DNA of 64,000 nt, from the NCBI RefSeq assembly GCF_014854695.1, contig NZ_CP027557.1, positions 496,001 to 560,000 on the forward strand, written 5' to 3'. The position numbers were made by a program, and so were the translations under genes. The notes below the pieces were generated by a model. That model was not told the DNA's origin, did no database searches, and saw nothing but the letters and a program-made list of their open reading frames with translations. Shown piece after piece: positions 34,376-56,233 of this stretch. Source of the DNA: Rhodococcus rhodochrous (GTDB taxonomy: Bacteria; Actinomycetota; Actinomycetes; Mycobacteriales; Mycobacteriaceae). Position 1 is the stretch's first letter. Each line of letters begins with the position of its first letter.

Positions 34376-34500
34376 CCAGGTCATGAGTACCAGCGTCAAG
34401 CCCCGGCTAGCTGGTCGGCAACCCTCCAACCGCGGTGGGGTGCTCCGGGTGACGACCGGGCCGTGAATCCACTACCGGACACGGCAAGCGCGGACTCCGC
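34376..34500 (+). ncRNA. SAM-IV riboswitch aptamer
   Basis: The segment starts AGGTCATGAGTACCAGCG and contains the conserved core GTCAAGCCCCGGCT, GGCAACCCTCCAACC and GGGGTGCTCCGGGTGACGACC. A 3' hairpin GCCGTG (34460-34465) / CACGGC (34480-34485) follows. This is the SAM-IV class found in actinobacteria, which binds S-adenosylmethionine and normally turns off sulfur amino-acid genes. A further hairpin at 34504-34522 (CGACGAG / CTCCGTCG) and the RBS GAGGG before 34565 could form the expression platform. Confidence 0.9.
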
Positions 34501-53288: not shown

Positions 53289-54122
53289 GTGCTCCTCACC
53301 GTCGACGTCCGCAACACCAATATCGTCCTGGGGGTGTTCGCGGGCAGCGGCTCGCACGCGCGGCTGCTGCGCGACTGGCGCGTCCGTACCGACCCCAGGA
53401 TGACCGCCGATGAGATCGCCCTGCTGTTCCGCGGTCTGCTCGGCGAATCCGCCGAGCAGGTCACCGGGGTGGCGGCGCTGTCGACCGTGCCGTCGGTGCT
53501 GCGCGAGCTGCGCGTCATGCTCGACCGCTACTGGTCGTCGGTGCCGCACGTCGTGGTGGAGCCGGGGGTGCGCACGGGAGTGCCGCTGCTCGTGGACAAC
53601 CCGAAGGAGGTCGGCGCCGACCGCATCGTCAACAGTCTGGCGGCCTACCACTTCTACGGATCCCCGTGCATCGTCGTGGATTTCGGGACGTCCACGTGCG
53701 TCGACGTCGTGTCGGGCAAGGGGGAGTTCCTCGGCGGGTCCATCGCTCCGGGTGTGGAGATCTCGATGGATGCGCTGGCGTCGCGGTCGGCGGCACTGCG
53801 GAAGGTCGAATTGCTCCGTCCCCGAGGTGTTCTGGGCAAGAACACCGTCGAGTGCATGCAGTCCGGGGCCGTCTTCGGGTTCGCCGGGATGGTCGACGGC
53901 ATCGTGCGGCGGATCTGCGCCGAGGTGCCCGGTTTCGACGGTGACGACGTGGTCGTGATCGGCACCGGCGACAGTGCGCCGCTGATCATGCCGGAGTCGC
54001 GCACTCTCGAGCACCACGAGCCGGATCTGACCCTCGAGGGACTGCGTCTGGTGTACGAGCGGAATCAGGTGAGACGAGCGGCACGCGGAACTGCGGGTTC
54101 CGCTGAGCGCCATTCTGTGTAA
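53289..54122 (+). CDS. coaX: Type III pantothenate kinase
   Basis: 277 residues, ASKHA fold; phosphorylates pantothenate in the first step of CoA synthesis. Motifs: [41 protein letters not shown], and GGSIAPG. The N-terminal D-V-R-N-T variation of DVGNT is noted. GTG at 53289 two bases after panD. The stop is two bases before the ATG of the Cys leader peptide. Confidence 0.95.
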
Positions 54123-54124
54123 AA

Positions 54125-54175
54125 ATGTTCTTCGTGATCCGTTGCATGAGCACCCAGGAGTGTTGTCGAGGCTGA
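54125..54175 (+). CDS. Cysteine-responsive leader peptide MFFVIRCMSTQECCRG
   Basis: A 16-residue peptide with three Cys codons (54143, 54161, 54164), two in tandem. CATTCT (54111-54116) lies 8 nt before its ATG, so a leaderless transcript starting at the ATG is likely, though read-through from coaX is possible. The last seven codons form the 5' arm of a stem that closes on the next gene's RBS. Organisation matches the mycobacterial leaderless poly-Cys uORFs that respond to cysteine supply. Confidence 0.75.
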   Translation: MFFVIRCMSTQECCRG

Positions 54176-54208
54176 CCGCCGCCTCGACCGATAACACATT
54201 CCTGGGAG
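54153..54208 (+). promoter_or_regulatory. RBS-sequestering attenuator stem
   Basis: The 5' arm 54153-54172 pairs with the 3' arm 54181-54206. CCCAGGA/TCCTGGG is 7 bp, TGTT/AACA is 4 bp, and GTCGAGGC/GCCTCGAC is 8 bp, with bulges only on the 3' side and between the first two helices. The 3' base of the stem includes part of the Shine-Dalgarno GGGAG (54204-54208). A ribosome stalled at the two Cys codons sits on the 5' arm. Confidence 0.75.
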
Positions 54209-54215
54209 TTTTCTC

Positions 54216-54668
54216 ATGCGCGCTGCGCTTCTTTCCACCACTTCTGTTTCCACCGCTGCTCCGGTCGCCTTCCACCGGCTTGCCGTCGAGCGCACGTACC
54301 CCACCGAACTGTCCGCAGCGGTCGCCCGCGGAGCCGTCGTCGTCGACATCCGCTCGAACGCCGAACGTGCCGCTCAGGGAACACTTCCCGGTGCACTGGC
54401 CATCTCCGTCGATCTCGTCGCCGAGCGACTCGATCCGAGCGGCAAGGGCCGTCTCGCCCTCGCCGTCGACCGCGACGTCGAATGGATCCTCGTCTCGTCC
54501 GACGGCGTGAGCTCGCACGGTGTGGTCACCGAACTGCACGCGCAGGGTCTGCGCAGGGTCACCCACCTCGTCGGAGGCTACGACGCCATCCGCGCGGCCC
54601 GCCTGGTCGGCGCAGTCGCCGAGGCCCAGCACGTCGCGCAGGACGTGGCGCGGGTCACCGCTCACTGA
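54216..54668 (+). CDS. Rhodanese-like domain protein lacking the catalytic cysteine
   Basis: 150 residues, one rhodanese fold ([37 protein letters not shown]). The active-site loop CxxGxRS reads SSDGVSS (94-100), so both the sulfur-carrying Cys and the Arg are replaced by Ser. It is unlikely to be a normal sulfurtransferase and may bind sulfur metabolites or a partner. It has no Cys and no Met beyond the start, suiting expression during sulfur starvation. Translation is predicted to be controlled by the leader peptide just upstream. RBS GGGAG at 54204. Confidence 0.82.
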
Positions 54669-54707
54669 AAGCGCGCATCTGCAGGAATAGTGACCTCGGG
54701 TGTCCGA

Positions 54708-54713
54708 TAGTCT
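54708..54713 (+). promoter_or_regulatory. -10 box of a leaderless promoter (TAGTCT) for lysS
   Basis: TAGTCT, eight bases, then GTG 54722; no Shine-Dalgarno. Confidence 0.55.
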
Positions 54714-54721
54714 GGTTACCC

Positions 54722-56233
54722 GTGAGTGATGCCACCGTTCAGCAGCCCGACGACACCCCCGAGCAGATGCGGGTCCGCCGCGAGAAGCGCGAACGGCTCC
54801 TGGCACAGGGCTCGGACGCCTATCCCGTCGAGATCCCGCGTACCCATACGCTCGCGGAGATCCGCGCCGAGTATCCCGACCTCGAACCCGACACCGCCAC
54901 CGGCACCGTCGTGGGCGTCGCCGGCCGCGTGATGTTCTCGCGCAACACCGGCAAGCTGTGCTTCGCGACGCTGCAGGAGGGCGACGGCACCCAGCTGCAG
55001 GTCATGCTCAGCCTCGCCGGCGTCGGCGAGGAGGCGCTCGCCGCCTGGAAGTCCGAGGTCGACCTCGGCGACATCGTGTTCGTGCACGGCGAGGTCATCA
55101 GCTCCCGGCGAGGTGAGCTCAGCGTCATGGCCGACTCGTGGACCATGGCGTCGAAGGCGCTGCGTCCGCTGCCGGTCGCGCACAAGGAGATGAACGAAGA
55201 GGCACGGGTGCGTCAGCGCTACGTCGACCTCATCGTGCGTCCCGAAGCGCGCCGCAACGCGCGCATGCGTGTCGCGGTGGTGCGCGAGCTACGCAACGCA
55301 CTCGAGCGTCGTGGCTTCCTCGAGGTCGAGACGCCCATGCTGCAGACCCTGCACGGTGGCGCGGCGGCCCGTCCGTTCGTGACGCACTCGAACGCGCTCG
55401 ACATCGATCTGTACCTGCGTATCGCGCCGGAGCTGTTCCTCAAGCGCTGTGTGGTCGGCGGTATCGAGAAGGTCTTCGAGATCAACCGCAATTTCCGTAA
55501 CGAGGGTGCCGACTCGACGCACTCGCCGGAATTCTCGATGCTCGAAACGTACGAGGCGTACGGCACCTACGACGATTCGGCTCGGATGATCCGCGAGATC
55601 ATCCAGGAGGTCGCGTTCGCGGTCTTCGGCAGCCATGTGGTGACGCTCGCCGACGGTACGGAATACGACCTCGGGGGTGAATGGAAAACCCTCGAAATGT
55701 ATCCCTCGCTGTCCGAGGCGATCGGCGCGGACGTGACCCCCGACACGACGCTCGAGGAATTGACGGCTCTCGCGGATCGCGTCGGTCTGGAGATTCCCGA
55801 GGGTAAGGGCTGGGGCCACGGCAAGCTCGTCGAGGAACTCTGGGAGCACATGTGCGGCGACCAGCTGAACGAGCCGACCTTCGTGCGTGATTTCCCCGTC
55901 GAGACGTCGCCGCTGACCCGCGATCACCGCACCGTGCGCGGGGTCACCGAGAAATGGGATCTGTACGTCCGCGGTTTCGAACTCGCCACGGGTTACTCGG
56001 AACTCGTCGATCCGGTGATTCAGCGCGAGCGCTTCGTCGACCAGGCGCGCCTGGCCGCGGAAGGTGACGACGAGGCAATGGTCCTCGACGAGGATTTCCT
56101 CGCCGCGATGGAACAGGGAATGCCGCCGACCACCGGTACCGGAATGGGAATCGACCGTCTGCTGATGGCACTTACCGGTCTGGGAATCCGCGAAACAATC
56201 CTGTTCCCGATTGTCCGACCGAACACCCGTTAA
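54722..56233 (+). CDS. lysS: Lysyl-tRNA synthetase (class II)
   Basis: 503 residues; charges tRNA-Lys. An OB-fold anticodon-binding domain (about 55-165) precedes the class II catalytic core, with motif 2 near [20 protein letters not shown] and motif 3 [11 protein letters not shown]. The GTG at 54722 fits the typical N-terminus ([15 protein letters not shown]) and a leaderless start. The position between coaX and lsr2 matches mycobacteria. Confidence 0.95.

Follow-up and report, generated by a model that had tools for sequence, protein, structure and literature searches.

A candidate cysteine-responsive leader before a rhodanese-like gene of Rhodococcus rhodochrous and related cysteine dioxygenase operons

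In the actinobacterium Rhodococcus rhodochrous, a rhodanese-like gene is preceded by a short upstream ORF (uORF) with two adjacent cysteine codons, and the codons of this uORF can pair with both the Shine-Dalgarno (SD) sequence and the start codon of the gene that follows. The leader element is real, and we consider it likely to be a cysteine-responsive translational attenuator of the mycobacterial polycysteine type. In many relatives, the equivalent leader precedes a gene annotated as encoding a cysteine-degrading enzyme. Observed features of the element include the geometry of its promoter and start, its hairpin, the co-variation of the hairpin arms, the conservation of its cysteine codons and the identity of its target genes. 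Here, “the window” refers to the whole stretch of DNA analyzed, 64,000 nt from a genome of 6.1 Mb.

Mycobacteria have polycysteine attenuators that reportedly respond to cysteine and act by freeing the ribosome-binding site (RBS) (Canestrari et al. 2020, Mol Microbiol 114:93). In the accessible part of Shell et al. 2015 (PMC4633059), Cys-rich leaderless uORFs, one of them located before cysA2, are proposed as attenuators. The accessible part of PMC13236596 cites the Canestrari work as a case of translation attenuation acting on M. smegmatis cysteine genes.

Promoter, start, and hairpin of the leader

The rhodanese-like gene (150 aa, 54216–54668; Pfam Rhodanese, E 2.9e-7) sits between coaX and lysS. 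An earlier note had placed upstream of it a 16-residue frame, MFFVIRCMSTQECCRG*, starting at an ATG at 54125 with a −10 box 8 nt upstream. That frame is indeed present at 54125–54175, but the start and its −10 are ruled out by an alignment within the genus and by a promoter profile: the ATG is out of frame in three genomes (L007, L013, and L014) and absent from two (L018 and L019), and the conserved promoter motif is instead an extended −10 at 54118–54126 that overlaps the ATG. At 54134, by contrast, every one of the 18 genomes of the genus (the window's own included) has a start codon, which is GTG except in L009, where it is ATG. The following features, all on the forward strand, are referred to throughout.

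54118–54126, + strand: extended −10, TG at 54118–54119 and hexamer AAAAAT at 54121–54126, from the profile of 70 of 72 distinct leaders
54134–54175, + strand: putative leaderless uORF of 13 codons, (M)IRCMSTQECCRG*, with start position and QECC kept across genera
54161–54166, + strand: tandem Cys codons TGT TGT (codons 10–11)
54144–54150, + strand: helix 1, 5′ arm GCATGAG, whose partner (54213–54219) includes the start codon
54153–54163, + strand: helix 2 (11 bp), 5′ arm CCCAGGAGTGT, whose partner (54196–54206) includes the 5′ part of the SD
54165–54172, + strand: helix 3 (8 bp), 5′ arm GTCGAGGC, partner 54181–54188
54181–54219, + strand: 3′ arm of the hairpin (helices 3, 2, and 1)
54204–54208, + strand: SD sequence GGGAG of the rhodanese-like gene
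54216–54668, + strand: rhodanese-like protein, 150 aa, with no Cys and Met only as initiator; Ser (SSDG) at the catalytic Cys position
54722–56233, + strand: lysS (lysyl-tRNA synthetase), conserved downstream neighbor; start codon read by eye

The extended −10 shares bases with the coaX stop codon and lies 7 nt upstream of the GTG. When leaders are aligned on their start codons, the most frequent bases in the profile are T−16 (0.90) and G−15 (0.89), then A−12 and T−8 (0.94 and 0.90), and finally C−1 (0.96). This profile took 70 of the 72 distinct leaders, from ten genera, two leaders of genus g95 being excluded for want of an RTG at the expected place. A scan with the sigma-70 consensus found no promoter at the leader. 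Because the extended −10 is at the distance expected for a start at GTG, the leader is most likely leaderless, i.e., the transcript most likely begins at GTG 54134 with the 13-codon uORF. In polycysteine attenuators, the mRNA begins at the start of the uORF; here, the corresponding observation is the extended −10 about 7 nt upstream of the RTG, as seen in the profile. lysS also looks leaderless by eye, with TAGTCT ~8 nt upstream of its GTG start (54700–54724).

The RNA spanning 54125–54225 is predicted to fold into a hairpin of −42.8 kcal/mol, as compared with −28.4 ± 3.4 kcal/mol for shuffled sequences (z = −4.26; 0 of 200 shuffles were as good). The advantage over shuffles shrinks when 201 nt of context are folded (z = −1.97; 8 of 200). 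The earlier description of a 19-bp stem, with the last seven uORF codons as its 5′ arm and the SD of the next gene in its 3′ arm, is correct, the 19 bp being the sum of helices 2 and 3. Helix 1 (7 bp) adds pairing of GCATGAG at 54144–54150 with CTCATGC at 54213–54219, such that the start codon is sequestered as well as the SD. The uORF stop codon, TGA at 54173–54175, falls within the hairpin loop. No terminator-like site was found in a search for intrinsic terminators at the leader, and control at the level of translation is therefore preferred.

An Rfam search returned no curated family at the leader; the five matches in the window that reach the gathering score lie elsewhere. A SAM-IV riboswitch at 34379–34496 (110 bits) is a second sulfur-amino-acid control element in the 64-kb window. 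A phage origin was considered and rejected, the protein having no relatives in viral contigs.

Conservation of the fold and of the cysteine core

The leader and the rhodanese-like gene are present in all 18 genomes of the genus (counting the window's own), and sister records, including R. gordoniae and R. aetherivorans, carry near-identical leaders. A covariance model (R1) built from 19 leaders found matches in 110 of 251 genomes of the family, spread over 11 of 31 genera; none of these 110 genomes belongs to the largest other genus (g2, taken to be Mycobacterium). In a class-wide draw, seven of 296 genomes matched, five of them being family members. The remaining two matches (L272 and L273) are weak (E about 0.02) and were dismissed as chance, since they are GC-rich hairpins with no Cys uORF. 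A scan for the core found at least 119 stretches which, among the matches listed, include Rhodococcus, Nocardia, Rhodococcoides, Prescottella, Williamsia, and Aldersonia. Also among the matches listed, 114 of the 119 have an in-frame ATG or GTG at the expected place. The five others (L167, L211, L246, L255, and L259) look like chance matches. One stretch, L191, is titled Kitasatospora arboriphila and has a Williamsia-like locus, so may be mislabeled; in another, from an actinobacterial metagenome-assembled genome (L176), the leader core all but abuts C-terminal coding sequence for cysteine dioxygenase (CDO), as if the front of the enzyme were missing. For detailed comparison, 78 loci were taken, the downstream start being obtained for 77; they contain 72 distinct leaders.

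On conservation, the earlier reading held up: several genera keep the Cys codons and the stem, along with the spacing of the promoter and the pairing of the start codon. At least two of the four SD bases pair with the uORF in 71 of the 72 distinct leaders, and the start codon is wholly paired with the uORF in 67 of 72, through AUG/CAU, GUG/CAC, GUG/CGC, or wobble variants. The uORF-to-RBS pairing that characterizes polycysteine attenuators is thus present, with arms that co-vary. In a 19-row alignment (A1), 93.9% of pair cells hold standard pairs, as compared with 35–50% when slid, and four pairs change on both sides versus 0.8 in shuffles; 2 of 500 shuffles reach this value, although shuffles ignore relatedness, and related rows can inflate the signal. 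MAFFT had misplaced the lower stem of L044 and L045 in this alignment, and covariation was therefore also tested without an alignment, by swapping arms. Across 1023 inter-genus pairs of 51 short-type leaders, native arms paired better by a mean of 2.37 kcal/mol, with 82% of differences positive. The native mean was reached in 0 of 2000 permutations of sequences and in 39 of 2000 permutations of genus blocks; the latter is the fairer figure, and the arm-swap signal is modest when relatedness is respected. Helices 2 and 3 show little covariation because the core of the 5′ arm hardly varies. L275, which was found by synteny and not by the model, has changed helix sequences and the same fold. An idea that TGTTG is unpaired in g4 leaders was not borne out by the folds.

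Some leaders are longer. Those of g3 (Nocardia-type; L121–L127 and L142–L147) and g8 (L100, L101, L103, L138, and L139) have ~20–30 extra nt between the stop codon and the SD, and the extra stretch bears further GCCTCGACC / GAGGC repeats, suggesting a second possible pairing switch in these leaders.

The cysteine codons form a cluster near the end of the uORF, as in polycysteine attenuators, consisting of two codons (10–11) with no longer run. All 72 distinct leaders have TGT TGT, and E-C-C-R-G is invariant in the leaders selected by the model, but both figures are circular, the rows for the former having been picked by a pattern that contains TGT TGT. A fair test uses leaders found by their synteny with lysS, in 12 genomes, of which 11 have no model match and the other, G208, is not among the matches listed. 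A rhodanese homologue occurs in the lysS neighborhood in six of the 12. In each of these six, the homologue is preceded by a Cys-Cys uORF, which has QECC in five; the frames are VITRSCQECCRG, VTRMSQECCRSI, VIKSCQECCQG, VMKRCQECCQS, a longer frame ending ACRQECCRG (L279), and MWISKHVACRSWRVDACCPQNCRAL (L282). No QECC frame was seen at the six lysS loci without a rhodanese, two of which show unrelated Cys-rich frames. In five of these synteny leaders, the codons are TGT TGT in four and TGC TGT in the fifth, L282. The longer, different Cys leader of L282 stands before an apparent fused CDO-rhodanese gene (rhodanese by phmmer, CDO by eye).

Three of the synteny leaders (L274, L277, and L281) show no evident stem between uORF and SD, so the Cys core outlasts the stem. 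This is the one observation that a simple attenuator model has no need of, and we therefore kept a second reading, in which, following the logic of TnaC and SpeFL, QECC in the exit tunnel arrests the ribosome when cysteine is in excess, perhaps at the stop codon, and thereby switches catabolism on. Such nascent-peptide arrest would suit the constancy of TGT TGT where the opposing 3′ bases differ among genera, and the retention of QECC in five of six synteny leaders even though the residues that follow it change and some lack an evident stem. The residues preceding QECC vary widely, however, as do the stop codons (TAA in L144; TAG in L275 and L281), and taken with the further evidence given below we judge arrest unlikely.

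Target genes and other Cys-rich leaders

Among 60 relatives' loci that were fetched, the first gene carries the CDO motif HDHAGS in 52, and a rhodanese gene and lysS come after it in most of these 52. One example (L109) matches PF05995 with E 1.9e-11 and PDB cysteine dioxygenases with E 7e-14, with HDH (the HxH iron motif) aligned. By these sequence matches, the relatives' first gene is a CDO, putative as to substrate. The earlier note had overlooked this target, as it had the start-codon helix and the rhodanese's missing catalytic Cys. In the core scan, among the matches listed, the CDO iron motif lies within 1.5 kb downstream in 89 of 119 stretches. Records of R. jostii (L195) and R. erythropolis (L170) are examples with the leader upstream of a CDO. 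Matches to the Pfam families CDO_I and Rhodanese place the targets in sulfur metabolism, as for polycysteine attenuators.

In five of the 60 loci (L106, L107, L128, L129, and L130), the leader is immediately upstream of the rhodanese gene, as in the window's genus. Of 42 rhodaneses encoded after a CDO, 36 have the loop Cys (CSEGYTSS or close), two have SSDG, and four were left unread; of the five directly after the leader, two have the loop Cys and three lack it. The window's protein has SSDGVSS where PDB 2hhg has CAGGLRS, and so lacks the catalytic Cys of an active rhodanese. It contains no sulfur residue except its first Met. There is likewise no Cys in any of the 18 rhodanese-like proteins of the genus or in 49 of the 52 operonic CDOs.

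No CDO is present at the leader locus in the 18 genomes of the window's genus. Sequence comparison suggests that loci without the CDO also tend to have a rhodanese without its catalytic Cys, while the leader stays; to call these absences losses is to infer a direction of change. The switch probably first served a CDO-rhodanese operon, with only the rhodanese-like gene remaining under it in the window's genus. One could go further and regard the element in this genus as the decaying leftover of a lost CDO operon, stranded before a rhodanese made inactive by Ser in place of the catalytic Cys. Since 18 of 18 genomes retain the leader and its start position, together with a rhodanese-like frame that is full-length and free of Cys, we think it very improbable that the element is such a relic.

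Eleven of the 18 genomes encode a separate CDO elsewhere, and a different Cys-rich frame lies upstream of it in all nine in which the upstream region was resolved (the 11 minus L049 and L054). In the window's genome, Cys-rich uORFs with a −10-like match precede an NIR_SIR reductase gene, a two-domain rhodanese gene, and the separate CDO gene, and the genome thus appears, from its sequence, to have a set of Cys leaders. The uORF before the NIR_SIR reductase gene is MTGHGVRLVARRHVDFKRVCASCCLPCAACLCADCL (L286, position 750) and that before the two-domain rhodanese gene is VQNRHELMLTRRRAVDLCRLGGCCCPC (L291, position 283, reverse strand). The Cys-rich leader of the separate CDO gene (G000:C1, about 5337400–5338100; L056) terminates in GGFCGCRACR, and a segment of this leader is predicted to pair with the SD of the CDO gene; the orthologous leaders L048 and L051 have Cys runs of three (CGCCCHC) and six (CGCCCCCC).

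We modeled the cost of opening the RBS for eight of these other CDO leaders, assuming the furthest upstream start. For L048 and L051, placing a ribosome at most of the Cys codons lowers the cost from 16–18 to ~9–11 kcal/mol; with a ribosome at the stop, the cost returns to 15–18 kcal/mol. For L057, it falls from 9.7 to 4–5 kcal/mol, with 7.6 kcal/mol at the stop. The remaining five show a fall of at most about 3 kcal/mol, and one position in L050 shows a rise.

Proposed switch, direction of response, and implications

In the attenuator that we propose, transcription would start at GTG 54134, such that the mRNA would open with the 13-codon uORF. With no ribosome on the uORF, codons 4–13 would pair downstream and mask the rhodanese-like gene's SD and start codon, i.e., the OFF state. 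The ribosome footprint extends ~15 nt to either side of the P site. A ribosome awaiting Cys-tRNA at codons 10–11 would then cover approximately nt 10–43, nearly the whole of the 5′ arm (nt 11–39), and would free the SD and start codon for translation, making cysteine limitation the ON state. Both the stalling and the direction of the response are parts of the model that we infer. The general idea of the earlier note, a leaderless Cys uORF that hides the RBS until a delay at TGT TGT opens it, thus survives, strengthened by conservation but without the start and −10 box originally assigned to it.

Folding models are consistent with opening by a ribosome on the uORF. In 66 leaders of 13 codons (the g95 pair being excluded from both the opening and the masking models), opening the region from the SD to the start codon costs 14.0 kcal/mol when the RNA is free, about 10 kcal/mol with a ribosome at codons 1–2, 6.6–7.6 kcal/mol at codons 3–11, and 8.4 kcal/mol at the last two positions. 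Masking the 5′ arm raises the unpaired probability of the start codon from 0.06 to 0.49, while the SD stays mostly in local pairs (unpaired 0.13, versus 0.27 free); the opening energy was used additionally because the unpaired probability of the SD did not show opening. Any resident ribosome opens the site in these models, so cysteine limitation would alter residence time. The earlier proposal that the stem re-forms once the ribosome reaches the TGA is only weakly discriminated, with 8.4 kcal/mol at the stop and 7.5–7.6 kcal/mol at the Cys codons; in the folding models, stalling at the Cys codons is hardly distinguishable from pausing at the stop. A ribosome arrested by its nascent peptide at the stop would likewise cut the cost of opening, from 14.0 to 8.4 kcal/mol.

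The near-equal cost across codons 3–11 (6.6–7.6 kcal/mol) is also what plain translational coupling would give, in which the hairpin is opened by whatever ribosomes travel along the uORF and the Cys codons sense nothing. Under coupling of this kind, Cys codons should not persist across genera, and they do so as TGT although TGC outnumbers TGT by 64 to 19 in the window's long, high-GC3 frames; nor should Cys-rich leaders recur on other sulfur genes of the genome. We hold this explanation to be quite improbable.

For the proposed attenuator, the identity of the relatives' target raises a difficulty: turning on an enzyme that degrades cysteine when cysteine is short looks like the wrong way round, and induction by excess cysteine would be expected. 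The arrest alternative draws on this point, the first gene being a CDO in 52 of the 60 fetched loci, and on the increase in cdo expression reported, in the accessible part of PMC12763843, for Streptomyces grown on cysteine-rich feather keratin. Against it, Cys clusters vary in length among the unrelated leaders that precede the separate CDO in the same genus (CGCRACR, CGCCCHCLD, and CGCCCCCCHD), which fits sensing of tRNA supply. In addition, according to the accessible part of PMC7661421, sulfate limitation of Gordonia sp. NB4-1Y raises expression of a CDO and four sulfurtransferases, and the oxygenases raised under this limitation are poor in sulfur amino acids. Because of the other Cys leaders in the genome, the Cys-free products, and the Gordonia RNA-seq data, we favor a switch that is ON under cysteine limitation over induction by excess. 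A bolder extension of the arrest alternative would make the element a new class of cysteine leader, conserved across a dozen or more genera related to Rhodococcus and Nocardia, with QECC programming an arrest that reads cysteine through the nascent chain and switches the CDO-rhodanese operon; we see only a small chance that this is so.

Several known systems bear comparison with the proposed attenuator. In ermC and cat translational attenuation, a stalled ribosome on a short leader likewise frees a sequestered RBS; the trigger there is an antibiotic, whereas here it is presumably the supply of Cys-tRNA. TnaC/tna and SpeFL/speF likewise place a short leader peptide before an amino-acid-degrading operon, but TnaC and SpeFL sense an excess metabolite through the nascent chain and act in a Rho-dependent manner, of which there is no direct sign here. 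The closest likeness is to the mycobacterial polycysteine leaderless ORFs, which also have clustered Cys codons in a leaderless uORF before a sulfur gene (in their case including cysA2, which belongs to the rhodanese family), together with uORF-to-RBS pairing that a delayed ribosome is proposed to open. The element would work like these attenuators, and its membership of the group is putative. It differs from them in its Cys codons, of which there are two, in tandem, within a 13-codon frame whose core is QECC, in holding the start codon itself inside the stem, and in its target, a CDO-rhodanese operon or a Cys-free rhodanese-like gene. We found no published account of the element in the open-licence literature, and the comparison suggests a di-Cys subtype that is compact, conserves QECC as its core, and is linked to an enzyme that degrades cysteine.

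If the proposed attenuator is correct, a compact element would extend ribosome-sensed control by cysteine beyond the mycobacteria and would tie it to an enzyme annotated as cysteine-degrading. Either these CDOs serve sulfur scavenging during starvation, as the Gordonia RNA-seq data hint, or the switch is reversed and the leader encodes a new arrest peptide. At this locus of the window, where the CDO and the catalytic Cys of the rhodanese are absent and the switch is kept, the arrangement suggests that a regulatory leader can outlive its enzyme.
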